NCBI RefSeq assembly: GCF_025642135.1
Contig: NZ_CP106793.1
Coordinates: forward strand, 3,083,001-3,147,000
Direction of reading: 5' to 3'
DNA from: Streptomyces cynarae
GTDB taxonomy: Bacteria > Actinomycetota > Actinomycetes > Streptomycetales > Streptomycetaceae
DNA: 64,000 nt
Positions 39,414-58,699 of the stretch are shown here, one piece after another; the stretch's first letter is position 1; every line of letters begins with the position of its first letter. The notes under the pieces were generated by a model. The model saw nothing but the letters and a program-made list of their open reading frames with translations. It made no database searches and was not told the origin of the DNA. Both the position numbers and the translations under genes were made by a program.

Positions 39414-39497
39414 ACAGTGACCGGAAACGAGCGCTCGGTGGACTTCCCCGCGCCCTCGCTGAGAAGCTGGGCCGTTGAAAGGCAGGTGGCGACACGC

Positions 39498-40709: not shown

Positions 40710-40795
40710 GTCCCCGGGTCCCCACCCCGGTTCCACCCCTGCCCGGCACCCGCTCCGGTCGAACCACACCCCGCCCGTCCCAGGGAGACCCCGTC

Positions 40796-42127: not shown

Positions 42128-42129
42128 CG

Positions 42130-43071
42130 ATGAGCACGATCACCCTCGCCTCGAAGCGCCGCAGGGCGGCGCTTCGGACGGCCGCCTTCATGTCGCCCTG
42201 GCTGATCGGCTTCGCGGTCTTCTTCGCGTACCCGCTGATCTCGACGGTCTACTTCTCGTTCATGCACTACGACGGCTTCCGGCCGCCGACGTGGAGCGGA
42301 GCGAAGAACTGGACGTACGTCTTCGAGAACTACCCCTACTTCTGGCCCGCGTTGCGCAACACCCTGTGGCTGGTCGTGATCATGGTCAGCCTGCGGGTCC
42401 TCTTCGGGCTCGGCGTCGGACTGCTGATCACGAAGATCAAGACGGGTACGGGCGTCTTCCGCACCCTGTTCTACCTGCCCTACCTCGCCCCGCCCGTCGC
42501 CGCCACCATGGCGTTCGCCTTCCTTCTCAACCCGGGTACGGGCCCGGTCAACTCGATCCTCGAGAAGATCGGCATCCCGGCACCGGGCTGGTTCAACGAC
42601 CCTTCCTGGTCCAAGCCCGCCCTCACCCTGCTCGCCCTGTGGGGCATCGGCGACCTGATGGTCATCTTCATGGCCGCCCTGCTCGACGTGCCGCAGGAGC
42701 AGTACGAGGCGGCCGAACTGGACGGCGCGTCGGCCTGGCAGCGCTTCCGGTACGTGACGCTGCCGAACATCTCGCCGATCGTGATGTTCGCGGTGGTCAC
42801 CGGAGTGATCCAGACCATGCAGTACTACACACAGCCCCTGATCGCCGGAAAGGTCGCCTCCGGTGTCATCCAGGGCGCCGGCACGCAGTTCGAGCCGGGC
42901 TACCCCGAGAAGTCCACGCTCACCCTGCCCCAACTCGTCTACAACCTCGGCTTCCAGCGCTTCGACTACGGCTCCGCCTGTGTGGTCGCGCTCGTGCTGT
43001 TCGCCCTGTCCATGGTGTTCACCGCGTTCCTGATGCGGCGCCGGGGCGGCCTCAACCTGGCAGGTGACTGA
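42130..43071 (+). CDS. Sugar ABC transporter permease (MalF/UgpA type)
   Basis: 313 residues with six membrane helices. FMSPWLIGFAVFFAYPLISTVYFSF is the characteristic first helix. The EAA loop that contacts the ATPase is YEAAELDGASAWQRFRYVTLPNISP (about residues 205-225). It starts two bases after the stop of the binding-protein gene and is followed two bases later by the second permease. Together with a shared ATPase it would import a glycoside. Confidence 0.94.
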   Translation: MSTITLASKRRRAALRTAAFMSPWLIGFAVFFAYPLISTVYFSFMHYDGFRPPTWSGAKNWTYVFENYPYFWPALRNTLWLVVIMVSLRVLFGLGVGLLITKIKTGTGVFRTLFYLPYLAPPVAATMAFAFLLNPGTGPVNSILEKIGIPAPGWFNDPSWSKPALTLLALWGIGDLMVIFMAALLDVPQEQYEAAELDGASAWQRFRYVTLPNISPIVMFAVVTGVIQTMQYYTQPLIAGKVASGVIQGAGTQFEPGYPEKSTLTLPQLVYNLGFQRFDYGSACVVALVLFALSMVFTAFLMRRRGGLNLAGD

Positions 43072-43073
43072 CC

Positions 43074-43967
43074 ATGACCCAAGTGCTCGACAAGCCGGTG
43101 GGGGTGCGGGCGCCCGCCTCGCCGGCCGCACGCACCGCCCGCCGCAGGGCCGCCCTGGAGTGGGTCGCGGTCCACTCCCTCGGCGTGGCCGCCGCCCTCT
43201 TCTTCACTCTGCCCTTCGTTTTCGTGCTGCTGACCTCGCTGATGAGCGACAGCCAGGCGCTCAGCCGCGACCTGATCCCGCACACCTGGGAGTGGGGCAA
43301 CTACCGGAAGGTGTTCGACACACCCGGCTTCCTCACCTGGTGGAGGAACACCCTGGTCTACGCCGGCCTGGGCACCGTCCTGACCGTCGTGTCGTCCGTT
43401 CCGGTGGCGTACGCGCTCGCCAAGTTCCGCTTCCGGGGCCGGAATCTGTCCCTCATGCTGGTGATCTCGATGATGATGCTGCCACCGCAGGTGATCATCA
43501 TCCCGATGTACCTGTTCTGGGCGAAGCAGTTGGATCTGGCGGGCACGCTGTGGCCACTGATCATCCCGATGGCGTTCGGCGACGCGTTCTCCATCTTCCT
43601 GCTGCGCCAGTTCCTGATGACGATCCCGAACGAGTACCTGGATGCCGCGAAGGTCGACGGCTGCGGTGACCTGCGGACCCTGCTGAAGGTCGTGCTGCCC
43701 ATGGCCCGGCCGGGCATCGCCGCCGTCGGGCTCTTCCAGTTCTTCTACGCCTGGAACGACTACTTCGGCCCGCAGATCTACGCCTCCGAGAACCCGGGCG
43801 CCTGGACGCTGAGTTACGGCCTGGAGTCGTTCAAGGGCGCGCACCACACCGACTGGAACCTGACCATGGCCGCGACCGTGCTGGTCATGGCCCCCGTGAT
43901 CCTCGTGTTCTTCTTCGCCCAGCGGGCGTTCGTCGAGGGCGTCACGCTCACCGGAGTGAAGGGTTAG
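43074..43967 (+). CDS. Sugar ABC transporter permease (MalG/UgpE type)
   Basis: 297 residues with six membrane helices. The EAA loop is YLDAAKVDGCGDLRTLLKVVLPMARPG (about 192-216), and LLPPQVIIIPMYLFWAKQLDLAGTLWPLI is characteristic. The N-terminal 25 residues are cytoplasmic and basic. It is the last transporter gene, followed 10 bp later by the GH4 gene in the same operon. Confidence 0.94.
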   Translation: MTQVLDKPVGVRAPASPAARTARRRAALEWVAVHSLGVAAALFFTLPFVFVLLTSLMSDSQALSRDLIPHTWEWGNYRKVFDTPGFLTWWRNTLVYAGLGTVLTVVSSVPVAYALAKFRFRGRNLSLMLVISMMMLPPQVIIIPMYLFWAKQLDLAGTLWPLIIPMAFGDAFSIFLLRQFLMTIPNEYLDAAKVDGCGDLRTLLKVVLPMARPGIAAVGLFQFFYAWNDYFGPQIYASENPGAWTLSYGLESFKGAHHTDWNLTMAATVLVMAPVILVFFFAQRAFVEGVTLTGVKG

Positions 43968-43977
43968 TCAGCCACAC

Positions 43978-45243
43978 ATGAAACTCACCGTGGTCGGCGG
44001 AGGGTCGACCTACACACCTGAACTCATCGACGGATTCGCACGGCTGAGGGACACGCTGCCGGTCGAGGAGCTGGTCCTCCTCGACCCGGCCGCCGAACGC
44101 CTCGAGCTGGTGGGCGGGCTGGCCCGACGGATCTTCGCCAAGCAGGGACATCCCGGACGCGTCGTCACGACCGGCGACCTGGACGAGGCGGTCGAGGGCG
44201 CCGACGCCGTGCTGCTCCAGCTGCGCGTCGGCGGCCAGGCCGCACGGCAGCAGGACGAGACCTGGCCGCTGGAGTGCGGCTGCGTCGGTCAGGAGACGAC
44301 CGGCGCGGGCGGCCTCGCCAAGGCGCTGCGCACCGTGCCGGTGGTCCTGGACATCGCCGAACGGGTCCGCCGCACCAACCCGAAGGCCTGGATCATCGAC
44401 TTCACCAACCCGGTCGGCATCGTCACCCGCGCCCTGCTGAAGGAGGGCCACCGGGCCGTCGGACTGTGCAACGTGGCGATCGGCTTCCAGCGGAAGTTCG
44501 CCGCGCTGCTCGGGGTCACTCCCGCCGATGTGCACCTGGACCATGTGGGCCTGAACCATCTCACGTGGGAGACCGGTGTGCGCCTGGGCGGTCCCGAGGG
44601 CGGGAACGTACTGCCCAAGCTGCTCACCGAGCACGGCGAGGCGATCGCGGCCGATCTGCGCCTGCCCCGGAGCCTGGTGAACCGGCTCGGCGTGGTCCCG
44701 TCGTATTACCTGCGCTACTACTACGCGCACGACGAGGTCGTGCGGGAACTGAGGACGAAGCCCTCGCGCGCCGCCGAGGTCGCCGCCATGGAACGGGAGT
44801 TGCTCCAGATGTACGGCGACCCCGAGCTCGACGAGAAGCCCGATCTGCTCGCCCGGCGGGGCGGCGCCTACTACTCGGAGGCCGCGGTCGACCTCGCGGC
44901 GGCGCTGCTCGGCGGGTCCGGCTCGCCGTACCAAGTAGTGAACGCGTACAACCACGGCACGCTGCCCTTCCTTCCGGACGACGCGGTGATCGAGGTGCAG
45001 GCGGCCGTCGGCCCGCACGGACCGACCCCGCTGCCCGTACCTTCCGTGGACCCGCTGTACGCGGGGCTGATGGCGAACGTGACGGCGTACGAGGACCTGG
45101 CCCTGGACGCCGCCCTGCGCGGCGGCCGGGACCGCGTCTTCCGCGCCCTGCTCGCCCATCCCCTGATCGGCCAGTACGAGTACGCCGACGCCCTCACCGA
45201 CCGACTGATCGCGCACAACCGGGAGCACCTCGCGTGGGCCTGA
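43978..45243 (+). CDS. 6-phospho-beta-glucosidase (glycoside hydrolase family 4)
   Basis: 421 residues. GH4 enzymes hydrolyse phosphorylated disaccharides by a redox-elimination route needing NAD and a divalent metal. NAD motif GGGSTYTPELIDG at 7-19, metal Cys in GLCNVAIGF (about residue 164) and His in GLNHLTWET (about 195-203) are present, with DFTNPVGI nearby. Because the transporter brings in unphosphorylated sugar, a kinase is needed to make the substrate, and the downstream BadF-type kinase fits. The ATG at 43978 has no obvious ribosome site. Confidence 0.93.
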   Translation: MKLTVVGGGSTYTPELIDGFARLRDTLPVEELVLLDPAAERLELVGGLARRIFAKQGHPGRVVTTGDLDEAVEGADAVLLQLRVGGQAARQQDETWPLECGCVGQETTGAGGLAKALRTVPVVLDIAERVRRTNPKAWIIDFTNPVGIVTRALLKEGHRAVGLCNVAIGFQRKFAALLGVTPADVHLDHVGLNHLTWETGVRLGGPEGGNVLPKLLTEHGEAIAADLRLPRSLVNRLGVVPSYYLRYYYAHDEVVRELRTKPSRAAEVAAMERELLQMYGDPELDEKPDLLARRGGAYYSEAAVDLAAALLGGSGSPYQVVNAYNHGTLPFLPDDAVIEVQAAVGPHGPTPLPVPSVDPLYAGLMANVTAYEDLALDAALRGGRDRVFRALLAHPLIGQYEYADALTDRLIAHNREHLAWA

Positions 45244-46217
45244 CCGCAAGTGTCCTCGCCATCGACGCGGGCAACAGCAAGACCGACGTCGCCGTGGTGG
45301 CCGCCGACGGGGAGGTCCTCGGCACCGCGCGGGGCGGGGGGTTCCGGCCGCCGGCCGTGGGCGTGGAGACGGCGGTGGACGCCCTGGCTGAAGCCGTCGA
45401 GCGGGCCTGCGCGGCGGCGGGGGTCGCCTCGGTCACCCATGTCTCGGCCTGCCTGGCCAACGCCGACCTGCCGGTGGAGGAGGAACAGCTGGCCGCCGCG
45501 CTGCACGCGCGCGCGTGGGGCACGACGGTGGAGGTGCGCAACGACACGTTCGCGATCCTGCGGGCCGGGGTGGCCGAACCGAGAGGCGTCGCCGTGGTCT
45601 GCGGCGCCGGCATCAACTGCGTCGGCATGCGCCCCGACGGACGCACCGCCCGCTTCCCCGCACTCGGCCGCATCTCCGGCGACTGGGGCGGCGGTTGGGG
45701 CCTGGCGGAGGAGGCCATGTGGTGGGCGGCGCGTGCGGAGGACGGCCGCGGCGGCCCCACCGCCCTGGCACGCACGCTGCCGGCGCACTTCGGCCTCGCC
45801 TCGATGTACGCGCTCATCGAGGCGCTGCACCTGGGGCACATCGCCCACGACCGGCGCCACGAGCTGACCCCGGTGCTGTTCACGACGGCCGAGGAGGGCG
45901 ACCTGGTGGCCCGCGCGGTCGTGGACCGGTTGGCGGAGGAGGTGGTCACGATGGCGACGGTGGCGCTGAGGCGGCTGGACCTCCTGGAGGAGGAGACCCC
46001 GGTCGTACTGGGCGGCAGCATCCTGGCGGCCCAGCACCCCCGACTGGACGGCGCGGTAAGGGACCTCCTGGCGTCGAGGGCCCCGAAGGCGGTCCCCCAG
46101 GTGGTCACGGCCCGCCCGGTCCTGGGAGCGGCACTACTGGGCCTGGACCACGAACACGCCCCGAAGGAGGCCCAGGCACGGGCACGGGCGTACTACGAGG
46201 GACCGCAAGGCCGCTGA
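45234..46217 (+). CDS. BadF/BadG-type sugar kinase (N-acetylglucosamine kinase-like)
   Basis: 327 residues, ASKHA fold. The phosphate-1 loop is LAIDAGNSKTDVAV (about 8-21), and the second motif is VVCGAGINCVGM with GRISGDWGGGWGLAEEAMWW, a signature of GlcNAc/glucosamine kinases of this family. It probably phosphorylates the imported glycoside or its amino-sugar product for the GH4 enzyme. GTG 45234 overlaps the GH4 stop by 10 bp, which supports co-translation. It is the last gene of the operon. Confidence 0.85.
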   Translation: MGLTASVLAIDAGNSKTDVAVVAADGEVLGTARGGGFRPPAVGVETAVDALAEAVERACAAAGVASVTHVSACLANADLPVEEEQLAAALHARAWGTTVEVRNDTFAILRAGVAEPRGVAVVCGAGINCVGMRPDGRTARFPALGRISGDWGGGWGLAEEAMWWAARAEDGRGGPTALARTLPAHFGLASMYALIEALHLGHIAHDRRHELTPVLFTTAEEGDLVARAVVDRLAEEVVTMATVALRRLDLLEEETPVVLGGSILAAQHPRLDGAVRDLLASRAPKAVPQVVTARPVLGAALLGLDHEHAPKEAQARARAYYEGPQGR

Positions 46218-46658: not shown

Positions 46659-48032
46659 GTGACACAGCTGCAGCACGGCGTCGCCCCACCGGCGACGCCC
46701 CTCGCACCCCGCCGCACCGCCTTCGCCGAGGGCGCCGACCGCCTGCGCGCCGCCGCCGCCACCGAACCCGGCCGGCTCCGCGTCATCGGCGCCGTCCTCG
46801 CCCTGCTCGTCGTATCCTTCGGCGCCGTCACCGCCTGGCAGATGACCGACCGCGCGGGCGCCGCCGACGACGTACTCCACCGCAGCCAGCCGCTCAGCGC
46901 GGGCGCCGCCGACATCTACCGCTCCCTCGCCGACGCCAACACCGCGGCCTCCAGCGGCTTCCTGGCGGGCGGCCAGGAACCCGCCGCGACCACCCTCCGG
47001 TACGAGAAGGACATCCGGACGGCCGCCGCGAAGCTGGTCACCGCCGCGGCCAACGCCGAGCCCGGCTCCCCCTCCGCGACCACCATCACCAAGCTCAACA
47101 CGCTGCTCCCGGAGTACAAGGGCCTCATCGAACGTGCCCGCGCCAACAACCGCCAGGGCTTCCCGGTCGGCGGTGCCTATCTGCGGGCGGCGAACGAGAA
47201 GATGCAGCAGGAGATGCTGCCGGCCGCCCAGGACCTGTACACCAAGGAGAACCAGCGGCTGCGCTCCGACTACAGGAGCGCCACTCCGTATCCCTGGTTC
47301 GCCCTCGCCCTCGGCGTCCTCGCGCTCGCCGCCCTCGGCTGGGCGCAGCGCCGCCACTACCTGCGGACCAACCGGGTGCTCAACCACGGTCTGGTCGCCG
47401 CCACGGCCGCCTCCGCGATCGTCCTGCTGTGGCTGGCCGCCGGCCACAGCGTCGCCCGCGCCGGCCTGAACTCGTCGTACGCGCACGGCATCCGCTCGCT
47501 GAACGTGCTGCACGACGCCCGTATCGCGTCCCTGAACGCGCGCGGCAACGAGAACCTGACCCTGGTCAGCCGCGGCGCCGAGACCGAGAAGCTGCCGAGC
47601 GGGGCGGTCGAGGACGCCTACGACTACGCGTTCCAGCAGGACATGGACGCACTCGGCACGACCCTCGCCAAGGCGGCCTCCCTCGCCGACGACCAGGCGG
47701 GCGAGCAGCCCGTGAAGGCCGCCACCGGCAACATGAAGGTGTGGCAGGAGCGCCACAAGCAGGCCCGGGCGGCCGACGACGACGGCAACTACCAGGCGGC
47801 CCTGAACAAGATCATCGGATCCAGGGCGGACCAGCCCACCGGCGAGTGCTTCGACAGCGTGGACGCGAACCTGGCGAAGGCGCTGGACCACGAGGAGAGT
47901 GAGTTCGTGCAGGCGGCGAGCGACGGCCGGGACGCCATGACCGGGCTCCCGGTGGGCGCGGCCGTCCTCGCCGTGCTGGGCGCCTCCGGCGCGGTGCTCG
48001 GCATCGGGCGCAGGCTGTCGGAGTACCGGTGA
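46659..48032 (+). CDS. glnX: GlnX-like membrane sensor of the PknG pathway
   Basis: 457 residues with four membrane segments (about 41-61, 205-226, 243-262 and 428-450). Two extracytoplasmic helical-bundle domains lie between them; the first contains DIYRSLADANTAASSGFLAGGQEP, the sort of four-helix sensor domain found in GlnX. In mycobacteria GlnX passes the amino-acid signal from GlnH to the kinase PknG. Position and order here match (membrane protein, binding protein, then kinase). GTG 46659 has GGGAGGTCAG upstream. Its stop overlaps the GlnH start. Confidence 0.82.
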   Translation: MTQLQHGVAPPATPLAPRRTAFAEGADRLRAAAATEPGRLRVIGAVLALLVVSFGAVTAWQMTDRAGAADDVLHRSQPLSAGAADIYRSLADANTAASSGFLAGGQEPAATTLRYEKDIRTAAAKLVTAAANAEPGSPSATTITKLNTLLPEYKGLIERARANNRQGFPVGGAYLRAANEKMQQEMLPAAQDLYTKENQRLRSDYRSATPYPWFALALGVLALAALGWAQRRHYLRTNRVLNHGLVAATAASAIVLLWLAAGHSVARAGLNSSYAHGIRSLNVLHDARIASLNARGNENLTLVSRGAETEKLPSGAVEDAYDYAFQQDMDALGTTLAKAASLADDQAGEQPVKAATGNMKVWQERHKQARAADDDGNYQAALNKIIGSRADQPTGECFDSVDANLAKALDHEESEFVQAASDGRDAMTGLPVGAAVLAVLGASGAVLGIGRRLSEYR

Positions 48033-49051
48033 GAGGGGGAGCGGCGATGATCGCACGGCGTCTGCGGGCGAGCGTGAAGGGCTGGGGCGGCGTGGCGGCG
48101 ATGCTCGTCGCCTGTGCGCTCACCCTGGTCCTCGCGCTGCTGCTGCCGCTGACCCACCCGCGCGGGAACGGTTCCACGAGCACCGGCGGCCCGGGCCTCG
48201 CCCAGGCCACCCAGGCCAAGGACGACTCCTGCGACGGCCACCCGGAGCGGCTGAGCCCGCCGCCGTCGAGCGACGAGACGGGCCGGGCGGTCACGGCCAT
48301 CAAACAGCGCGGCTATCTCTCGGTGGGCGTCGACCAGAACAGCTACCACTGGGGCTACCGCGACCCCAACAGCAAGGGCAGCGACCTCGAGGGCTTCGAC
48401 ATCGACCTCGCCCGCGAGATCGCCCGGCAGGTCATCGGCAGCCCGGACGCCGTCCGCTTCCACGCCATCCCCACCAACCAGCGCATTCCGGCGATCAAGA
48501 ACCACCAGGTGGACATGGTGGTGCGCACCATGACGATCACCTGCGCCCGGCTGGCGGACGTCTCCTTCTCCGAGCCGTACTTCACGACCGGCCAGCAGGT
48601 ACTCGCGCCCAAGTCCTCCTCGATCACGGGCTATGACACGTCGCTCGCCGGCAAGAGGATCTGCTCGGCCCAGGGTTCGACCGCGGGCGCGAAGCTGACC
48701 GAGGACAGGAAGTCCGGCCGGCTCGCCGCGTCGGCCGACATCTCCACCACCGTCCCCAACCAGCTCGACTGCCTGGTGAAACTGCAACTCGGCGAAGTCG
48801 ACGCGGTGGTCACCGACGGCGCGCTCGCCGCCAGTCAGGCCGCCCAGGACCCGACCGTCGAACTCAAGGGCAAGCCCTTCACGACCGAGTACTACGGCGT
48901 GGCGATGAACAAGGATGACAAGGATCTGGTACGCCGGGTCAACCAGGTGCTCGAGGACTACCGCAAGAACGGCTGGCAGGCCTCGTACACCAGGTGGCTG
49001 TCCCAGACGCTGGGCAAGGACTCGACGCCGTCACAGCCGCCTTCCACCTGA
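48029..49051 (+). CDS. glnH: GlnH-like amino-acid-binding protein (SBP family 3)
   Basis: 340 residues. A membrane anchor or uncleaved signal (MLVACALTLVLALLLPLTH, about residues 23-41) has no clear lipobox Cys, unlike the lipoprotein form elsewhere. The binding domain reads YLSVGVDQNSYHWGYRDPNSK, LEGFDIDLAREIARQVIG and VDMVVRTMTITCARLADVSFSEPYF. The family binds aspartate, glutamate or glutamine. The GTG at 48029 overlaps the GlnX stop (GTGA). It lies with glnX and pknG, so it should report external amino-acid levels to the kinase. Confidence 0.85.
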   Translation: MRGGAAMIARRLRASVKGWGGVAAMLVACALTLVLALLLPLTHPRGNGSTSTGGPGLAQATQAKDDSCDGHPERLSPPPSSDETGRAVTAIKQRGYLSVGVDQNSYHWGYRDPNSKGSDLEGFDIDLAREIARQVIGSPDAVRFHAIPTNQRIPAIKNHQVDMVVRTMTITCARLADVSFSEPYFTTGQQVLAPKSSSITGYDTSLAGKRICSAQGSTAGAKLTEDRKSGRLAASADISTTVPNQLDCLVKLQLGEVDAVVTDGALAASQAAQDPTVELKGKPFTTEYYGVAMNKDDKDLVRRVNQVLEDYRKNGWQASYTRWLSQTLGKDSTPSQPPST

Positions 49052-49137
49052 ACCGCGCAACCGACCTGGTACCACTGGAGAGTTGCCCCGGCGCACCGGA
49101 CAGGCGCGCGGGGAACGACGAGAGCGAGAGGTGATCG

Positions 49138-50459
49138 ATGGGCGTCACGGGACCCACCGGGCCGGTGCTGGACCGGGACGAGGTGGACCGTGCGCTGGCG
49201 CGGCTCGGTGCGGAGCACGAGGCCATAGAGACCTCGCTCCTCGCCCTCCAGGACCACGCGGGCCGCAGACTCCTCGAGGGCGCCGAGCTGACCGGCGTCA
49301 CCAAGGAGCGGTGGGCGTCGGCGGAGGCGTCGATCACCCTGCTGTGGGCGTACTTCGACGCCTACACGGACACGCTGCGCACCGCGCGGGACATCCGCTC
49401 CCGCAGGCGCTGGTCGAGCCGCGAGGACCTGGCCGAGCTGACCGAACTGCTGCGCGGCCCGAGCGTCACCGTCGCGGGCGGCATCACTGCGACGGCGAAC
49501 GCGCCGACCATGGCGGGCACCGGCCGGCTCAGCGAGCAGTTCACCCTGGAGCAGCTCGTGGACCGGATGAACGACCTGTACGCGTCCTCGCTGGACATGG
49601 TCGTCGCCGCCGACGCGGTGTGGTCGGCGCTGCCCGCCCGGATCGATCTACTGGCCGCGGAGTTGCAGCGCACGCGTCAACTCGCCCACTCGGTGGGCGT
49701 ACGCCCCGGTGAGCATCCGGCGGGCGACGACCTGGAGCGCATCACCCGCACCCTGACCAGGCTGCGCGAGCAGGTGGTCTCCGACCCGCTGGCGTACTGG
49801 GTCCCGGCCCAGGGGAGTTCGGCGCCCGGCGGCGGCAGGCCGGACACCACGGTGTACGACCGCCAGGCACGCGCCCTTGAGGACGTACGCCGGGAGATCG
49901 ACGCAGTACTGACGGTACGTCAGGACGCGGAGAAGCGGCTCGTCAGACTGCGCGACCTGCTCAGCCGCGCCGACCGCACCCTGGCCGAGGCCCGCAGCGC
50001 GCGCGGTGAGGTGCTGGCGAAGATCGCCGCCTCGGAGGTGCCCGCGGTCAGCGGCCCGCCCACCGCGCTGCAGGAGCAGTTGGCGACGGCCGCCGAGTAC
50101 CGCAGGCACGCCCAGTGGCACCGCCTCTCGCCGCTCCTTGACTCGCTGGAGCAGAGGGCGGAGGACGAACTCCAGCGCGCCCGTGAGTCGCTGACGGCGG
50201 TCACCGCGCCGCTCGCGGTCCGCGCCGAGCTACGCGGCCGCCTCGACGCGTACAAGGCGAAGGTGGCCCGGCACGGCCTGGCGGAGGACCCGCTGCTGGT
50301 CGAGCGGTACGACGCGGCCCGCCGCATGCTGTGGAGCGCGCCCTGCGACCTGAGGGCCGCCGAGCAGGCGGTGCTGCGCTACCAGCGGGCGGCCGCGGAA
50401 CTGCTCGGCGCGCGCGTGCCCGAGCCGGGCGCACCGGCCGACCGGAGGGGGAGGCATGA
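49138..50459 (+). CDS. Helical protein of unknown function between GlnH and PknG (frameshift at its end)
   Basis: About 440 residues, almost all alpha-helical with coiled-coil stretches (ALEDVRREIDAVLTVRQDAEKRLVRLRDLLSRADRTLAEARSARG); no signal or membrane segment. No family recognised. In this sequence its frame has no stop and runs 2.7 kb further through the kinase region. Adding one G to the G5 run at 50447-50451 ends it R-G-E-A and TGA, overlapping the pknG ATG (ATGA). I take that as the real end. Presence between glnH and pknG suggests a cytoplasmic adaptor or kinase partner. Confidence 0.7.
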
Positions 50460-53172
50460 GCCAGGCGGGGCGGGCGTGCCAGCGGCCCGGCTGCGAGGGG
50501 TCGTACGAGGACGTGGGCGGCGGCGAGCTGTACTGCGACACGTGCGGGCTCGCGCCGGTCGTCTCGGCGAAGGGCGCGGAGGGCTCGCCGCCCGCGGGGG
50601 GCACCGCGGACGGCAAGGGCTCCCAAGGTTCGGGGACCGGCGGTGCGCGGCCCGGTTCGGGAACGTCGTCGCGGTCGTCGCAGTCCCGGCGGTCGTCACA
50701 GTCGCGGCGGTCGTCACAGTCGCGGCGGTCGGTGTCGGGCCGGCTGTCCGGGAAGTCCACCGGCCGCTCGGTGTCGGTGCGCAGCTCCGGTTCCACCGGT
50801 GGGAGTTCGGGTCGCAGCCGGCTCGGCCTGGGCCTGGTGCAGGTCCCGGCGGTGCCGCGGCCCGACCCGCGGGCCATGGTGCTGGAGCGCGCGGAGGTGC
50901 CCGAACGCAAGCGGTTCTGCTCGCGCTCCGACTGCGGGGCCCCGGTGGGGCGGGCGCGCGGCGACCGGCCCGGACGCACGGAGGGGTTCTGCACCAAGTG
51001 CGGCCACCCCTATTCGTTCGTCCCGAAGCTGAAGGCCGGAGACATCGTGCACGGCCAGTACGAGGTCGTGGGCTGCCTGGCGCACGGCGGGCTCGGCTGG
51101 ATCTACCTGGCGGTGGACCGCGCCGTCTCCGACCGCTGGGTGGTCCTCAAGGGCCTGCTGGACACCGGCGACCAGGACGCGATGGCCGCGGCGATCTCCG
51201 AGCGGCGCTTCCTGGCGGAGATCGAGCACGCCAACATCGTGCGGATCTACAACTTCGTCGAGCACCTGGACCAGCGCACGGGCTCGCTCGACGGCTACAT
51301 CGTCATGGAGTACGTCGGCGGCAAGTCGCTGAAGGAGATCGCCAACGAGCGTCGCGCACCGGACGGGCGACGCGATCCGCTGCCGGTGGAACAGGCGTGC
51401 GCGTACGGCATCGAGGCGCTGGAGGCGCTCGGCCATCTGCACAGCCGGAACCTGCTGTACTGCGACTTCAAGGTCGACAACGCCATCCAGACCGAGGACC
51501 AGCTCAAGCTGATCGACATGGGCGCGGTGCGCAGGATGGACGACGACGAGTCGGCCATCTACGGCACGGTCGGCTACCAGGCTCCCGAGGTCGCGGACGT
51601 CGGCCCGTCGGTGGCCTCCGACCTGTACACGGTCGCGCGCACCCTGGCGGTGCTCACCTTCGACTTCCAGGGCTACACGAACGCCTACGCCGACTCCCTG
51701 CCCGACCCGGACACCATCGAGGTCTTCCGCCGGTACGAGTCCTTCTACCGGCTGCTGGTCCGCGCCACCGACCCCGACCCCGCGCGCCGGTTCGCGTCCG
51801 CGCAGGAGATGTCGGAGCAGCTGACGGGCGTGCTGCGGGAGGTCGTCGCGCTTCGGACGGGCCGTCCGAGGCCCGCGCTGTCGACGCTGTTCGGTCCGGA
51901 ACTCAAGGTCACGGACACGGAGTTGTTCCCGAGGCAGGCCGGGGAGGTGTCGCGGCTGGGGGCACGGGTGGTGCCGCGCGCCGCCTGCGCCGGGCGGCCG
52001 GGGGTGCGCTGCCCGCCACGCCGGGAACCGCGGGCTCCGGAACCGGGGGTGCGCTGCCCGCCACGCCGGAAACGGCGGGCTCCGGCACCGTGCGTGCCGC
52101 GTCCGCCTCTGCCGTCGTGGCCCCTGCCCCCGCCGCCCCTCCCGCCGTCTCCGGCTCCCCCGCCGCCGGTACCGGTCCGGGGGCGGCCGGGGGCACGGGT
52201 GGCACGGCCGCCGTCGGCGCCCCCGCCGTCGTCAAGCCGGTCGACGCCCCTGCCGCCGCACTCGCGCTGCCCGTCCCGCATGTCGACCCCGGCGACCCCA
52301 ACGCCGGTTTCCTGGCTGGTCTCATCGCCTCCGCGCCCGCCGAGCTGATCGTCGCTCTGCGCAGCGCACCCACCGCCTCCCCGGAGCTGAGGCTGCGCGA
52401 GCTGCGCGCCCGGCTGGAGATGGGTGAGACGGCGGGTGCCGGGCAGGCCCTCGCGGCCCTGGAGACGGACCACGCCGACGACTGGCGGGTCGTGTGGTAC
52501 CGCGGTGTCACCGCGCTCGTCACGGGCGACCACGAGGCCGCCGCGCTCTCCTTCGACGCGGTCTACGACGCCTTCCCCGGCGAGCCCGCGCCCAAGCTGG
52601 CCCTCGGCCTGTGCGCGGAGGTCCTCGGCCAGCTCGACAACGCCGCCGAGTACTACCGCCTCGTATGGACGACCGACCCGAGCTACGTCAGCGCGGCGTT
52701 CGGTCTGGCCCGCGTCCAGTTCGCCGCCGGTGACCGCCAGGGTGCCGTGCGTACCCTGGAGTCCGTGCCGGAGGCGTCCATCCACTACACCGCCGCCCGC
52801 GTCGCCGCCGTCCGGGCGCGGCTGCGGCAGCGCACCGGCCGGGGACCGGACCCGGCCTTCCTGGACGACCTGGTGGCCGCCGCGGGACAAGTGCAGGCGC
52901 TGGAGGCGTACGGTCTGGACGCCGTGCGGCGCGAGCAGTTGTCCACAGAGGTCCTGGGCTGTGCGCTGGACTGGGTACTCTCCGGTGGCCAGGGCTCCGC
53001 GCCGCCCGCGGCCGACGGGCGGGCGCTGCTCGGCAGCGACCTGGACGAGCGCGGCCTGCGCTTCGGCCTGGAGCGCTCGTACCGGACGCTGGCCAGGCTC
53101 GCACAGGGCGGCGAGGAGAGGATCGACCTGGTGGAACGTGCAAACCGTTACCGCCCCCGGACGTGGGTGTGA
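50456..53172 (+). CDS. pknG: Serine/threonine protein kinase PknG (frameshifted in this sequence)
   Basis: About 905 residues after adding one base. N-terminal zinc cluster (C8, C13, C27, C30), an SSQSRR tandem linker (about 74-91), a rubredoxin-like cluster (C155, C160, C179, C182), then the kinase: Gly-loop AHGGLGWIYL, VVLKGL, VMEYVGG, catalytic YCDFKVDN (Asp337, Lys339, Asn342), DMGAVRRM and YQAPEV. A Pro/Ala linker precedes a TPR domain that matches mycobacterial PknG (DDWRVVWYRGV, FPGEPAPKLALGL, AAFGLAR). The kinase frame stops at 52348 and the TPR is in another frame; adding one G to the G5 run at 51958-51962 joins them. PknG phosphorylates FHA partners to control 2-oxoglutarate metabolism. 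Confidence 0.88.
50675..50728 (+). repeat. 18-bp x 3 in-frame repeat in pknG
   Basis: Units at 50675-50692, 50693-50710 and 50711-50728, the last two identical, encode SSQSRR three times in the linker between the two zinc clusters. The Ser/Arg content makes it a candidate site for autophosphorylation. Confidence 0.85.
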
Positions 53173-53175
53173 TCG

Positions 53176-54576
53176 ATGTCGCAGATGCCCCGGTCGACGG
53201 CGCTTTCGCGGTGCCCCAGCTGTGAGGAGCCCCTGGAGCCGGGCGACCTCTACTGCGGCGCCTGCGGGTACGACCTGTCGGTGGTGCCCGCTCCGCCGTC
53301 CGACCCCCCGACGCTGACCATGAACGGCACGGTGCCGCGGCCCTCTTCGGAGGCGCCCTCGGTGGACTGGCCGCCTGCCCCGCCGACGGGCGGCCCGCAG
53401 GCGCCCGCCCCGGTGCACCTGCCGACCGACCTGCCGGGCACGGACCCGGGCGGCGCGGAGCCTCCCGGCACGCCCGCCGGGAGGGGCGTGCGGTTCGACC
53501 GTCCCGCGGAACCCGACGACTACCACCTCGCCTCCCCCGAGCACTCGGCTCCTCCCCCACTCTCGGCTTCGCTCGAGCGGGGGGACCCCCATGAGCAGGG
53601 GCGGCCCCCGTCCCAGCCGGTCGACCCGCGCACCACCGTGCCGTCCACGCCTCCCGCCGGCACGAAGGTCTGCGTGGCCTGCCGCGCGGGCACCGTGGAC
53701 AGCGACGGCTACTGCGAGAACTGCGGCCACGCCCAGCCGCGCGAACGCGACCACCTGGAACAGGAGTTGGGAGCGGTCGCGGCGGTCAGCGACCGCGGCC
53801 TGCGCCACCACCGCAACGAGGACGCGTTCGCGGTCTCCTCCACCGCGCTGCCCGACGGCTCGCCCGCGGTGGTCGCGATCGTCTGCGACGGCGTGTCCTC
53901 GGCGACCCGCCCCGACGACGCCTCTCTGGCCGCCTCCCGGGCGGCGAGCGAAGCGCTCCTCGACGCCCTGCCGCGCGGCACGCACCCGCAGCAGGCCATG
54001 CACGACGCGATCATCGCCGCCTCGCACGCCGTCAACTCCCTGGCCGCCGAGCCGGAGACGGCCCAGGAGCACGCCCCGCACCAGAACGCGCCCGCGTGCA
54101 CCCTGGTCGGCGCCGTCGTCACCGCGAGTCTGCTCGTCGTCGGCTGGGTCGGCGACAGCCGCGCCTACTGGGTCCCGGTGGACCGCACCGCGCCGCCGGC
54201 CCGGCTCACCGAGGACGACTCCTGGGCCGCGCAGATGGTCGCCGCGGGCCTGATGAGCGAGGCCGAGGCGTACGCCGACGAGCGTGCCCACGCGATCACG
54301 GGCTGGCTCGGCGCGGACGCCTACGAACTGGACCCGCACACGGCGTCGTTCAAACCGGACCGGCCGGGTGTCGTGGTGGTGTGCACCGACGGGCTGTGGA
54401 ACTACGCGGAGGCCGCCGAGGAGATGGCCGAGGTGGTGCCGCTCGACGCCGGGCTCCGTCCGCTGCACGCCGCCCGGGTACTGCTGGGCCACGCCCTGGA
54501 CGGCGGTGGGCACGACAACGTAACAGTGGCGGTCCTCCCGTTCCCTGCCCTGCCGCAGGGGGCAGGATCCGCCTGA
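53176..54576 (+). CDS. PP2C-family serine/threonine phosphatase with zinc ribbons
   Basis: 466 residues. A zinc ribbon CPSC-CGAC (about 13-34) and a second CVAC-CENC (about 165-184) flank a Pro-rich linker. The PP2C domain follows: SDRGLRHHRNEDAF, VCDGVSSATRP, GWVGDSRAYWV, VVVVCTDGLWN and GGHDNVTVAVL; metal-binding Asp residues are in place, so it should be active. It starts 4 bp after pknG and is probably its counter-phosphatase. Residues about 125-139 (PPLSASLERGDPH) come from an inserted interspersed repeat at 53549-53592. A hairpin follows at 54585. Confidence 0.92.
   Translation: MSQMPRSTALSRCPSCEEPLEPGDLYCGACGYDLSVVPAPPSDPPTLTMNGTVPRPSSEAPSVDWPPAPPTGGPQAPAPVHLPTDLPGTDPGGAEPPGTPAGRGVRFDRPAEPDDYHLASPEHSAPPPLSASLERGDPHEQGRPPSQPVDPRTTVPSTPPAGTKVCVACRAGTVDSDGYCENCGHAQPRERDHLEQELGAVAAVSDRGLRHHRNEDAFAVSSTALPDGSPAVVAIVCDGVSSATRPDDASLAASRAASEALLDALPRGTHPQQAMHDAIIAASHAVNSLAAEPETAQEHAPHQNAPACTLVGAVVTASLLVVGWVGDSRAYWVPVDRTAPPARLTEDDSWAAQMVAAGLMSEAEAYADERAHAITGWLGADAYELDPHTASFKPDRPGVVVVCTDGLWNYAEAAEEMAEVVPLDAGLRPLHAARVLLGHALDGGGHDNVTVAVLPFPALPQGAGSA
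53549..53592 (-). repeat. Interspersed GC-rich element inserted in the PP2C gene
   Basis: About 44 bp: CTCCCCCACTCTCGGCTTCG, CTCGAGCG, then GGGGGGACCCCCAT. It is a near-inverted copy of the element at 55738-55780 and keeps the reading frame, coding PPLSASLERGDPH in a linker. I have seen this sequence type repeatedly in streptomycete genomes, but copy number here needs a search. Confidence 0.8.
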
Positions 54577-54584
54577 GAGGTCTG

Positions 54585-54611
54585 CCGGGGGCACCGTGAG
54601 GGTGCCCCCGG
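54585..54611 (+). terminator. Hairpin between PP2C and VWA genes
   Basis: Perfect 11-bp stem CCGGGGGCACC/GGTGCCCCCGG with a 5-base loop and no T run. The 183 bp between the PP2C stop and the VWA start break the tight spacing of the operon; the hairpin may lower rather than stop transcription. Confidence 0.65.
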
Positions 54612-54759
54612 ACGCGCCCGGGGCCGGCGGGGGCCGGCCCGAGAGGCCCCGAGTCCTGTCGTGGGGGTTCGACGACAGGACGCAGGACCGGAGGGGACCG
54701 GTCCGCCACCAGTCGTCACCCACCGCGGTGGGTTTTCTCAAGGGGGATCCGATACGGCC

Positions 54760-56142
54760 ATGGCCAATTTCTCGAAGTCGAGCGTGCCGCAGTTCTCGGT
54801 GGACGTCTACCAGAACGAGTACCTGCCGGAGGGGGGCCGCGAGGTCAACGCCATCGTCACGGTGACGGCGACCGGCGGCGGCACGATCGGAAGCGCCGTC
54901 AGGGCGCCCCACCTCTACGCGCCGGGGCAGGGCCCGGACGCGGCCGTGGCGATCATGGTCGACTGCTCCGGGTCGATGGACTATCCGCCGACCAAGATGC
55001 GCAACGCGCGCGAGGCGACCGCCGCCGCCATCGACACCCTGCGCGACGGTGTGCACTTCGCGGTGATCGGCGGCACCCATGTGGCCAAGGAGGTCTACCC
55101 GGGCGGCGGGCGGCTCGCGGTCGCCGACGCGACCACCCGCGGCCAGGCCAAGCAGGCGCTGCGCCGGCTGAGCGCGGGCGGCGGCACCGCGATCGGCACC
55201 TGGCTGCGGCTCGCGGACCGGCTGCTGTCCTCGGCGGACGTCTCCATACGCCACGGCATCCTGCTCACCGACGGCCGCAACGAGCACGAGTCCCCCGGAG
55301 CGCTGAAGGCCACGCTGGACGCCTGCGCCGGCCGGTTCACCTGCGACGCGCGGGGTGTGGGCACCGACTGGGAGGTCAAGGAGGTCACCGGGATCGCCTC
55401 CGCGCTGCTCGGCACCGCCGACATCGTCGCCGATCCGGCCGCCCTCGCCGCCGACTTCACACAGATGATGGAGACGGCCATGGGCAAGGAGGTCGCGGAC
55501 GTCGCGCTGCGGCTGTGGACACCCGTCGGCACGGAGATCAAATTCGTCAAGCAGGTGGCGCCCACCGTCGAGGACCTGACCGCCCGTCGGGTCGAGGCGG
55601 GTCCGCGCGCCGGGGACTACCCCACCGGCTCCTGGGGCGACGAGTCCCGCGACTACCACGTCTGCGTCCAGGTCCCGGCGGCGAACATCGGCCAGGAGAT
55701 GCTGGCCGCGCGCGTGTCCTTGGTCATACCCGAGGCCGGGGGTGCCTCACGCTCGAGCGGAGCCGGGAGTGGGGGAGGAAGTGCCCAGAGCCTGGGCGTC
55801 CAGGGGCTCGTACGCGCCGTGTGGACCGACGACATGGCGGCGTCCACGTCCATCAACCCCCAGGTCGCCCACTACACAGGGCAGGCCGAACTCGCCCAAG
55901 TCATCCAGCAGGGGCTGGATCTGCGCAAAGAGGGCGATTTCGATGGCGCAACGGCCAAACTGGGCCGCGCCGTTCAGCTCGCGAATGCCTCAGGGAACGC
56001 GGATACTGCGAAACTGCTTGCGAAGGTGGTGGACGTGGTCGATGCCGCGACAGGTACTGTGCGACTGAAGGCGAAGGTCGCGGAGGCCGACGAGATGACA
56101 CTCGAGACACGGTCCACAAAGACTGTTCGTGTAAAGAAGTGA
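54760..56142 (+). CDS. VWA-domain protein
   Basis: 460 residues, probably cytoplasmic (no signal). The von Willebrand A domain has an intact MIDAS: DCSGSM (Asp68), the Thr in AGGGTAIGTWL and Asp in LTDGRNEHE. A second half follows with a beta-sandwich (DVALRLWTPVGTEIKFV) and a helical TPR-like tail (GLDLRKEGDFDGATAKLGRAVQLANASG). The ATG at 54760 is preferred; AAGGGGG precedes it by about 13 bases. Residues about 327-341 (GGASRSSGAGSGGG) come from an inserted interspersed repeat. VWA proteins next to kinase/phosphatase/FHA genes usually act as scaffolds. Confidence 0.88.
   Translation: MANFSKSSVPQFSVDVYQNEYLPEGGREVNAIVTVTATGGGTIGSAVRAPHLYAPGQGPDAAVAIMVDCSGSMDYPPTKMRNAREATAAAIDTLRDGVHFAVIGGTHVAKEVYPGGGRLAVADATTRGQAKQALRRLSAGGGTAIGTWLRLADRLLSSADVSIRHGILLTDGRNEHESPGALKATLDACAGRFTCDARGVGTDWEVKEVTGIASALLGTADIVADPAALAADFTQMMETAMGKEVADVALRLWTPVGTEIKFVKQVAPTVEDLTARRVEAGPRAGDYPTGSWGDESRDYHVCVQVPAANIGQEMLAARVSLVIPEAGGASRSSGAGSGGGSAQSLGVQGLVRAVWTDDMAASTSINPQVAHYTGQAELAQVIQQGLDLRKEGDFDGATAKLGRAVQLANASGNADTAKLLAKVVDVVDAATGTVRLKAKVAEADEMTLETRSTKTVRVKK
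55738..55780 (+). repeat. Interspersed GC-rich element inserted in the VWA gene
   Basis: GGGGGTGCCTCACGCTCGAG, CGGAGCCG, then GGAGTGGGGGAGGAA. Relative to the copy at 53549-53592 it is in the opposite orientation, and about two-thirds of bases agree along the arms and core. It is in frame and codes a Gly/Ser-rich insert, sparing the VWA core. Confidence 0.8.
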
Positions 56143-56224
56143 CATAACAGCCAGCCCGACCCCCAGGGGTTGGAGAACCACGCCGGTCCCGGTGACCGGA
56201 AGAAGGAGAGGGGGACGCGCCGAC

Positions 56225-57579
56225 ATGCCGACCTGCCCGAACGGACACCAGTCGGGTTCCGACGACTGGTGCGAGGTCTGCGGTCACCGTATGGCCGGTG
56301 CCGTACCCCCGCCGCCTCCACCGCCGCCCGCCGCCGGTTACGGCTACCCGCCGCCGGGTTCGCCCCCGCCGCCTCCGGGCGCGGGCGGCCGCCCGGGGGA
56401 CGCCCGCTGTCCGCCGTACCGGATTCCGAGCCGGAGCTGTGCCCGCAGTGCCGTACGCCCCGCGAGGGCGGCGCCCCGTTCTGCGAGGAGTGCCGGTGGA
56501 ACTTCCTGACCAACACGGCGACCTCGTACACCCCCGCCGCCCCGCGCACGCCGGCGCCGGGTCTGCCGCCGCACTTCCAGCAGGGCGGACCGGCCGGGCC
56601 CGGCCCGGACTCGTACGACTACGAGAGGTCCCGGCCGTCGCAGGTCAACCGGCCTGCGGAACCGATTCCGCCGTCGCCGTTCGGCAGCGAGCCGTCCGGG
56701 CCGACGCGGTTCGGCCCGGACGCCTCACGCCCGGCCGGTCCCGCCGGTCCGTCCGGTCCGCCCGGCTTCGGTGCCGATCCGTCGCGTCCGGTTCCGCCGC
56801 CGCCCGGCCCCACGCCCGGTGGCCCGGGCGGTCATGGTGGTCCCGGTGGCCCGGGTGGTCCCGGCGCGTCCGGTCCGCAGGCCACGGCTCCGGGTGTCCC
56901 GTCGGGCTTCCCGCAGGGCGCACCGCCCTCCGCCTTCCAGCGGCCCGGTCCGCCGCCTCCCCCGCCGCCGACCCAGGGCTTCCCGCCGCCCGCCCCGCCG
57001 CAGTCGGGCGGTCCGTCCTTCGGCGGCGGTGACGACGACTGGGTGATCTCACCGCCGTCGTCCGCCCCGGCGCCGGGCGGTCCCGGCGGCCCCGGTGGCG
57101 GTCAGGGCGGTGCCTACGGTTACCCGCAGCCCGGCGCCACCCAGGCCCCGCCGCGCCCGTACGAGCAGCAGCCCGCGACCTGGACCGCGACCATCGGCCC
57201 GGACCGCGAGTACTTCATGGCGATGATGCAGCGCTCCGGCCCGGAGGCCGCGGGCCTCAACCTGCCCGCGTACTCCCCGGAACAGCAGCGCACGCTCACC
57301 GGCAACCAGGTCAGCATCGGCCGCCGCCGCCACTCCACCGGCGACACCCCCGACATCGACCTGTCGGTGCCGCCGGAGGACCCGGGCGTCTCGCACCAGC
57401 ACGCGGTACTGGTGCAGCAGCCGGACGGGTCCTGGGCGGTCGTCGACCAGAACTCCACCAACGGCACCACGGTCAACGGCTCCGAGGAGCCCATCCAGCC
57501 CTTCGTGCCGGTGCCCCTGCAGGACGGGGACCGGGTGCACGTGGGCGCCTGGACGACGATCACCATCCGCCGGGGCTGA
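56225..57579 (+). CDS. Zinc-ribbon and FHA-domain protein (frameshifted in this sequence)
   Basis: About 451 residues after one base is added. The N-terminus is a zinc ribbon (MPTCPNGHQSGSDDWCEVCG), then a Pro-rich stretch, a second Cys cluster (CPQCRTPREGGAPFCEEC), a long Pro/Gly linker, and a C-terminal FHA domain: VSIGRRRHS, DPGVSHQHAVLV, DQNSTNGTTVNG with the phosphothreonine-binding Arg, Ser and Asn. The two Cys clusters are in different frames; one more G in the G5 run at 56395-56399 joins them. FHA proteins bind phosphorylated Thr, so it is a candidate reader of PknG output, but it lacks the ETT phospho-motif of GarA. Confidence 0.87.
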
Positions 57580-57599: not shown

Positions 57600-58580
57600 T
57601 CAGGGGAGGGGCCAGGCGTACGGCCCCTCCGGATCGTCCAGCCACGCCCAGGAGCGGTCGCCGTCGACAGTGATGCCGTACCGCTCCCGCCCGGGCTGTC
57701 CCTCGCGCTCCCACAGCGTGTAGGCCTCGTACGGGTCTAGGCTGCCCCGCGTCAGGGCCAGCAGGAACCGGAACCGGTCGTCGCCGCGCGCCCGCTGCGG
57801 CAGCCCGCCCAGATCCCGCGGCTCCGGTTCGGTGCGGGTGCCCCCGCGCAACGGCACGAAGAAGGCGGGCGTACGCAGGAAACGCCCCTCGGCGTGCCCC
57901 GCGTCCCGCACCCGCAGGGCGATCAGCCCCGTCGCGAACGGCGTGAGGATGCGGGCGCCCGGACCGCACTGCGCGAGCCAGGCGCCCGGGATCGAACTCA
58001 GCGAGCAGGTCGCGATGACCCGGTCGAAGGGGCCGCGTTCCGGTACGCCGCGCGCGCCGTCGCCCGTGACCACGGCCGGGTGGTATCCCGCGGCCGCCAG
58101 GTGCTGCCGGGCGGACTCGGTGATCTCCGGGTCCAGGTCGATGGTGGTGACCCGGTCGTCGCCGAGGCGGTGGGCGAGCAGGGCCGCGTTGTAGCCGGTG
58201 CCGGCGCCGATCTCCAGTACGGCGTTCCCGTCCTCGACCCCCAGCTCGGTCAGCATCTCCGCCATCAGGGAGGGCTGGCTGCTGGAGGAGAGCAGCTCGC
58301 CGTCGCGCACACGGGTGGCCAGCGGGGTGTCGGTGTACGCGCCGCGCAGCCACTGTTCCCTGTGCTCCGGGTCGGGGTCGCCGCACCATCGGCGCTCGTA
58401 GCCGCCCCTGACGCCGATGTAGTAGTACGGCACGAAGAGGTGGCGCGGCACCGCCTCGAACGCCTCCCGCCACACGGGATCCGCGCTCCAGGCGCCGCTC
58501 GCGTCGATCTCCCGCACGAGTTCCGCCCGTGCGGACGCGGCGAGGTTCTCCAGATCCTGGTCGAGAGCGTGCGTGGCCAT
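57600..58580 (-). CDS. Protein-isoaspartate methyltransferase-like SAM methyltransferase
   Basis: 326 residues with start ATG 58580; the frame continues upstream to a GTG at 58601. SAM motif VLEIGAGTGYNAALLAHRLG (about 122-141), followed by VTTIDLDPEI and FDRVIATCSLSSIPGAWLAQCGPGARIL, the layout of isoaspartyl methyltransferases (PCMT/PIMT). The N-terminal SSSSQPSLMAEML loop also fits PIMT. The C-terminus is longer than PIMT (about 120 residues after the fold). It may repair isoaspartate or methylate a peptide natural product. It is convergent with the FHA gene and divergent from the globin. GGAGGT lies directly before the ATG, leaving the start uncertain. Confidence 0.8.
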   Translation of the reverse strand: MATHALDQDLENLAASARAELVREIDASGAWSADPVWREAFEAVPRHLFVPYYYIGVRGGYERRWCGDPDPEHREQWLRGAYTDTPLATRVRDGELLSSSSQPSLMAEMLTELGVEDGNAVLEIGAGTGYNAALLAHRLGDDRVTTIDLDPEITESARQHLAAAGYHPAVVTGDGARGVPERGPFDRVIATCSLSSIPGAWLAQCGPGARILTPFATGLIALRVRDAGHAEGRFLRTPAFFVPLRGGTRTEPEPRDLGGLPQRARGDDRFRFLLALTRGSLDPYEAYTLWEREGQPGRERYGITVDGDRSWAWLDDPEGPYAWPLP

Positions 58581-58699
58581 ACCTCCACTGTGCTGCGGCA
58601 CACAGTCCCGGGGCGAGCACGCCGCGCGCCGGATCCGGAATCCGTCCCTCTGGCCCCCTGGTCCTAAGCCTTGCGTCCTCGGTCGGCGTGTCTGAGACC

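Follow-up and report, generated by a model that had tools for sequence, protein, structure and literature searches.

Whether the genes that surround pknG in Streptomyces cynarae make up one signaling system, or only share a locus with the kinase, is the question raised by a region within the 64,000-nucleotide stretch of DNA analyzed here (the window; positions 3,083,001 to 3,147,000 of contig NZ_CP106793.1, part of a 9.36 Mb genome). Seven co-directional genes on the + strand (window positions 46659-57579) encode, in order, GlnX, GlnH, a helical protein referred to as Helix, the kinase PknG, a PP2C phosphatase, a VWA protein and an FHA protein. This seven-protein block had been proposed in a preliminary description of the DNA; all of its products were found, and their families are supported by profile matches. 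It is highly probable that the extended PknG locus is functional and co-inherited. Tentatively, the locus can also be read as a single nutrient-response phosphoswitch in which PknG and PP2C would set a VWA-FHA switch, analogous to the archaeal Arn proteins, as a second output.

Co-inheritance is seen in a sample of 197 genomes of the window's class, of which 55 have PknG_TPR above its cut-off and all 55 yielded a PknG locus. Block genes were counted with profiles built from the block itself (threshold at least 100 bits) in the 41 PknG genomes outside one family, f3. PP2C stands beside PknG in 40 of these 41 genomes, the zinc-ribbon FHA protein in 37 and the VWA protein in 35, while GlnX and GlnH are present at 39 of the loci. 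Helix is present at 37, found at 31 by hidden Markov model and at six (five in family f7, one in f78) by profile comparison, since the gene at these six has diverged; it occupies the equivalent slot, and the comparison gave 98 percent, whereas three unrelated profiles from the block stayed at <1 percent. Among the six VWA gaps, L050 and L103 fall at the end of a contig, and four are apparently genuine absences (L053, L076, L094, L099). The counts include G423 (locus L075), a genome of the same genus that has lost most of pknG and in which glnX, glnH and the VWA gene are broken, with PP2C, FHA and Helix still open. In a separate contig collection, eight profiles (GlnX, GlnH, Helix, PknG kinase, PknG TPR, PP2C, VWA and FHA; >80 bits) all match in 54 of 54 loci of at least 18 kb; these come from the best 80 of 577 VWA matches, 78 of which are titled Streptomyces and 2 Actinobacteria bacterium. 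The order PknG-PP2C-VWA-FHA is repeated in the main loci of families f1, f7, f78, f84 and f85 and in G189, a genome of another class in which all eight block profiles match. The co-occurrence survey that the preliminary description had called for thus finds the block co-conserved, and its view that sensor, kinase, eraser and reader lie in one locus is borne out by the counts.

The last three genes have a cohesion of their own. VWA_3_C, the Pfam family of the VWA protein, is matched (E <=0.001) in 40 of the 197 class genomes, namely in 36 of the 55 with PknG versus 4 of the 142 others. It lies beside PknG in 10 of 10 matching genomes of a phylum sample, and in 9 of 9 from a sample of 61 genomes drawn from the order of one f3 genome, two of them with a divergent PknG-like kinase. 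That VWA_3_C is always found beside PknG is nevertheless false in the class sample: 34 of the 47 matches are at a PknG locus (one being the broken G423), one belongs to a PknG genome but lies on a separate contig, and the other 12 are elsewhere, all in family f85. In nine of these 12 loci, which were examined, PP2C and FHA genes of the same families adjoin in every case and some VWA match is present in eight. PP2C-VWA-FHA is therefore a coherent unit, usually but not always attached to PknG. Three of the nine (L247, L248, L254) encode a kinase with a rubredoxin-like cysteine pattern and no PknG TPR match; the two of these kinases that were run against Pfam fall short of the rubredoxin cut-off. 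These three have no glnX nearby, but several TPR-bearing copies also lack an adjacent glnX, and the notion that the TPR domain goes with GlnX was dropped.

Family f3 has glnX-glnH-pknG in 14 of 14 genomes and Helix, PP2C, VWA and FHA in none of the 14; judged from its GarA motif and locus structure, it looks mycobacteria-like. The preliminary description had presented the block as an extension of the mycobacterial arrangement. The block itself stands, but in this sample the extended form is the common one outside f3 and the three-gene form is the exception. In the f3-order sample VWA_3_C occurs in 9 of the 61 genomes, none of which belongs to f3. Seven of the nine loci have Helix, PknG, PP2C, VWA and FHA, and six of these seven also have GlnX and GlnH, the seventh being a 5.7 kb contig; the remaining two have Helix-like, PknG-like and VWA genes that form a divergent set. 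Since the block is found in other families of the f3 order and in another class, the simplest reading is that the f3 locus is probably a reduced form that arose by loss, with the reservation that the PknG tree, built by a quick method, leaves its deepest forks unresolved.

The VWA protein (54760..56142, +; VWA_3_C, PF18571, 6.7e-23) comprises a vWA domain with an intact metal ion-dependent adhesion site (MIDAS), a beta-sandwich, a C-terminal helical domain and a Ser/Thr tail. The MIDAS residues are invariant in 25 of 25 alignment rows. In the AlphaFold model the vWA, beta-sandwich and helical parts are arranged as in archaeal ArnB. A Foldseek search of the PDB gave 4FX5 as the best match (E 1.1e-57), followed by an ArnAB complex (8S05, E 2.4e-20), and the matches to 8S05 and 5A8J extend over most of the length of the protein at about 14 percent identity to ArnB in structural alignment. 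The vWA protein of Catenulispora acidiphila, 4FX5, is a full-length relative of the window protein (51-55 percent identity) with the same tripartite fold, and the available part of PMC6509490 already compares it with ArnE. On the model and the PDB matches, the VWA protein is ArnB-like in fold and not the generic scaffold that had been suggested. What appears to be new here is that a VWA protein with a predicted ArnB architecture lies in a PknG locus; a literature search, which reached few subscription papers, found no publication naming both ArnB and PknG.

The tail deserves separate mention. Residues 452-460, the last nine, have a predicted local distance difference test score (pLDDT) <50 and are preceded by a short helix (442-448). 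D444, L448, S452 and T455 never vary across 22 block rows; E445 is found in 21 of them and T453 in 19, and residue 450 is Thr in 16 and Ala in 6. Comparison within the same genome sets the ETRST of the VWA tail against the ETTST of the GarA acceptor region, and Glu-Thr-Thr is present in two of the three ArnB phosphopeptides quoted in the part of the source available. Only a resemblance to the GarA acceptor is claimed, because T450 is Ala in 6 of 22 rows; identity with that peptide was set aside. The tail is a lead, a candidate site that may be modified by PknG or a related kinase and read by the FHA protein. The motif is not kept in the divergent VWA proteins beside second PknG-like kinases (L078, L098, L106). 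Divergent PknG-like kinases with an adjoining VWA protein were also seen at L049, L112, L113, L239 and L240, and the VWA proteins of L049, L239 and L240 have a C-terminal zinc ribbon where the Ser/Thr tail would be.

The FHA protein (56225..57579, +; PF00498, 1.5e-16) has two N-terminal zinc ribbons, a Pro/Gly-rich linker and an FHA domain whose G-R, S, H and N-G residues are invariant in 23 of 23 rows. From its sequence it appears to be a reader additional to GarA, because all 41 PknG genomes outside f3 have a strong GarA/OdhI-type match (best match at E 3.1e-49 or lower) outside the PknG locus, which rules out the locus protein as a replacement for GarA. Class-wide, the OdhI/GarA model matches at E 0.001 in 197 of 197 genomes, among them genomes without PknG_TPR above cut-off; 20 of the 197 pass the curated cut-off, and the weakest matches may be other FHA proteins. 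In the host genome the GarA/OdhI homolog (G000:C1:1581247-1581582; E 1.3e-54) scores 186 bits, slightly below the curated OdhI cut-off of 200, and carries the ETTST motif ahead of its FHA domain. In the GarA homologs inspected outside f3, the TT pair varies at its first Thr.

PknG (50456..53172, +) is made up of an N-terminal zinc ribbon, a Ser/Arg-rich linker, rubredoxin (PF16919, 7.8e-29), kinase (PF00069, 1.7e-24) and TPR (PF16918, 1e-88) domains, the last three above their Pfam cut-offs and spread over two frames in the window. Its catalytic residues (Lys, Asp, Asn and the Asp of DxG) do not vary in any of 71 rows. Within the linker between the N-terminal ribbon and rubredoxin, window positions 50680-50730 encode repeated Ser-Gln-Ser-Arg-Arg-Ser units. 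The PP2C phosphatase (53176..54576, +; PF13672, 1.4e-13) keeps both of its motifs, NED and DG, in all 41 rows. PknG (N-terminal ribbon plus rubredoxin), PP2C and FHA each have two zinc-binding units, in agreement with the earlier remark that three of the proteins share zinc ribbons; the ribbons are conserved and in part lost together. By reading, the extra PknG ribbon is present in 32 of 39 main loci outside f3 with an untruncated PknG and in 0 of 14 f3 main loci. Six related f85 loci (L054, L056, L097, L099, L103, L105) lack this ribbon and have one PP2C ribbon, not two, and the four of them that have an FHA protein have one FHA ribbon, not two. Strict co-loss does not hold: L101 retains ribbons on PP2C and FHA although none was detected on its PknG, and the triads away from PknG have one PP2C ribbon and a full or partial set of FHA ribbons. 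A regular-expression search for ribbons missed some that are visible by reading (e.g., L047, L071, L074). The partial joint loss is support for the ribbons acting together but no proof of it.

At the sensing end, the GlnX-family membrane signal protein (46659..48032, +) scores 503 bits with NF058618 (cut-off 250) and 189 bits with the narrower GlnX equivalog NF041460, short of its cut-off of 780. The GlnH-type solute-binding protein (48029..49051, +; SBP_bac_3, PF00497, 1.2e-27) has, by reading, an N-terminal hydrophobic anchor. The pocket residues of the solved mycobacterial GlnH, as given in the available part of PMC6069109, are R147, T162, R169, W232 and D250; the window protein retains the equivalents of all of these except W232, which is Gln. 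The ligand is likely an acidic amino acid, and because of the Gln at the W232 position an amide could also be bound. Helix (49138..50440, +) has no credible Pfam match. Its AlphaFold model (pLDDT 92.9) is nearly all helical and has no PDB match at E<0.001, which does not imply a new fold. Most loci have the gene between glnH and pknG, and f3 lacks it along with the rest; that Helix is an adaptor is a guess.

The archaellum regulatory network of Sulfolobus provides a close comparison for the added genes. There, the binding of ArnB to the zinc-finger FHA protein ArnA depends on nutrients and is controlled by a kinase and a phosphatase. The ArnA-ArnB-ArnC-PP2A system shares with the window the vWA/beta-sandwich/helical protein, the zinc-finger FHA protein, the kinase, the phosphatase and the nutrient link, and the window FHA protein, with its N-terminal ribbons and competent FHA residues, would fit an ArnA-type partner. 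In the actinobacterial case a single locus encodes all of the parts along with a membrane sensor, PP2C being the phosphatase and PknG the kinase. The GlnH-GlnX-PknG-GarA/OdhI pathway of Mycobacterium and Corynebacterium draws its sensor, membrane protein and kinase from the families seen in the window, likewise encoded at one locus, and has the GarA-type homolog elsewhere, whereas the window adds Helix, PP2C, VWA, the zinc-ribbon FHA protein and the PknG N-terminal ribbon, and has the Trp to Gln change in GlnH. The PpkA-PppA-Fha pathway of type VI secretion also has kinase, phosphatase and FHA reader in one locus, but its vWA domain is fused to the kinase, not separate as in the window, and the locus is that of a secretion system; the locus FHA protein scores 35.4 bits against TIGR03354, the TagH/Fha-type model with a cut-off of 120.25. 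The mycobacterial fhaA-fhaB-pstP-pknA-pknB locus clusters kinase, PP2C and FHA genes for cell-wall and division kinases but lacks a solute-binding sensor and a VWA protein. The TerY-P triad unites a TerY-type vWA protein with a kinase and a PP2C.

How the parts might work together can be outlined by homology and analogy. Outside the cell, GlnH would detect an acidic amino acid or an amide, and GlnX, as in the established pathway, would relay the signal through the membrane to the TPR domain of PknG, probably with Helix as adaptor between the two, the weakest step of the outline. Besides GarA, PknG would phosphorylate the VWA protein, the conserved Ser/Thr tail being the most likely site. The FHA protein, if it behaves as ArnA does with ArnB, would bind the phosphorylated VWA protein while its ribbons would dock either on VWA or on those of PknG and PP2C, and the co-encoded PP2C would reset the complex. 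The three-gene locus of f3 would then retain the GarA branch only. A wider proposal is more doubtful, although possible: that archaeal ArnA-ArnB and the actinobacterial VWA-FHA pair share descent, or have converged on one phospho-controlled complex, which in actinobacteria is wired to GlnH-GlnX-PknG as a second PknG output besides GarA and was lost in mycobacteria-like lineages. A Pfam scan of the VWA protein to E 0.1 listed VWA_3_C and no ArnB_C, leaving the link to ArnB a structural one.

Other arrangements would account for some of the same observations. GarA could be the sole output, with the FHA protein binding autophosphorylated Thr residues of PknG in competition with GarA, PP2C dephosphorylating both PknG and GarA, and VWA serving as a scaffold. 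The available part of PMC8546545 describes the N-terminus of mycobacterial and corynebacterial PknG as autophosphorylated and as recruiting the FHA protein GarA/OdhI, and the strong GarA/OdhI-type matches in all 41 PknG genomes outside f3 are in keeping with such feedback; it appears rather unlikely, however, as it leaves the conserved tail and ArnB architecture of VWA unexplained and as f85 has the triad without a TPR-type PknG nearby. Those same f85 loci, where PP2C and FHA, mostly with a VWA match, lie away from any PknG TPR kinase in nine of nine cases examined, could instead point to two systems side by side, PP2C-VWA-FHA-Helix being fed by other kinases and merely sharing the locus with glnX-glnH-pknG, and the strong hairpins between PP2C and VWA could mark the division. 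This separation is unlikely in view of the concentration of VWA_3_C in PknG genomes (36/55 vs 4/142), the gene order that recurs from f1 to G189, and the six f85 loci that lack both the N-terminal ribbon of PknG and the second ribbon of PP2C. A chance neighborhood or annotation artifact, which the three frame breaks in the window copy (see below) might suggest, is scarcely credible and is refuted by the presence of PP2C beside PknG in 40 of 41 genomes and of all eight profiles in 54 of 54 long contig-collection loci.

The window copy itself is imperfect, with three apparent frame breaks within about 6 kb (50400-56450): one at the end of Helix, one in pknG where it encodes a low-complexity linker, and one in the N-terminal part of FHA. 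Helix has no in-frame stop ahead of pknG. PknG spans two frames, the kinase part running from 50456 to about 51950 and the TPR part from about 52200 to 53172 in the frame of 49138, which places the change between about 51950 and 52240. The two FHA ribbons are in different frames, with the break between about 56330 and 56440. In seven of seven relatives whose open reading frames were inspected, Helix ends normally and both FHA ribbons are in a single frame. Of the 14 other same-genus loci where pknG is intact, 13 have its kinase and TPR parts in one frame and L047 is split too; L066 has Helix in two pieces. The breaks are taken as assembly errors or decay of this copy, and relatives were used for family-level conclusions. 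Two gene boundaries were also revised by reading: the FHA gene more likely starts at ATG 56225 than at TTG 56170, and the VWA gene at ATG 54760.

The intergenic stretch between the PP2C and VWA genes (54577..54759, +) contains strong hairpins (RNA fold z -4.5 over 54577-54700), possibly an attenuator or processing site; a weak terminator-like match with a T tract is present at 54716, and a promoter scan found none. Directly upstream of the block (39417-46217) is what reads as a sugar-uptake cluster, comprising a ROK-type regulator, a solute-binding protein, two permeases, a family 4 glycosidase and a BadF/GlcNAc-kinase-like protein. Downstream, on the - strand (57603-58601), is a gene for a PIMT-like methyltransferase that scores 266 bits with TIGR04188 (cut-off 380), whose members are methyltransferases of ATP-grasp peptide maturase systems.

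PknG is mostly known from a three-gene locus, and that form, as found in mycobacteria, looks like a pared-down variant of something larger. Should the larger locus be the common form, the kinase would come with an eraser of its own, a reader and a candidate substrate, all missing from the usual model organisms, and an older role of the pathway may show only in Streptomyces and relatives. G423, a natural loss of glnX, glnH, pknG and VWA, is of interest for its phenotype. The VWA-FHA pair would give ArnAB, the archaeal switch, a bacterial counterpart that can be tested, and it hints at what the VWA_3_C family and the solved structure 4FX5 may do.

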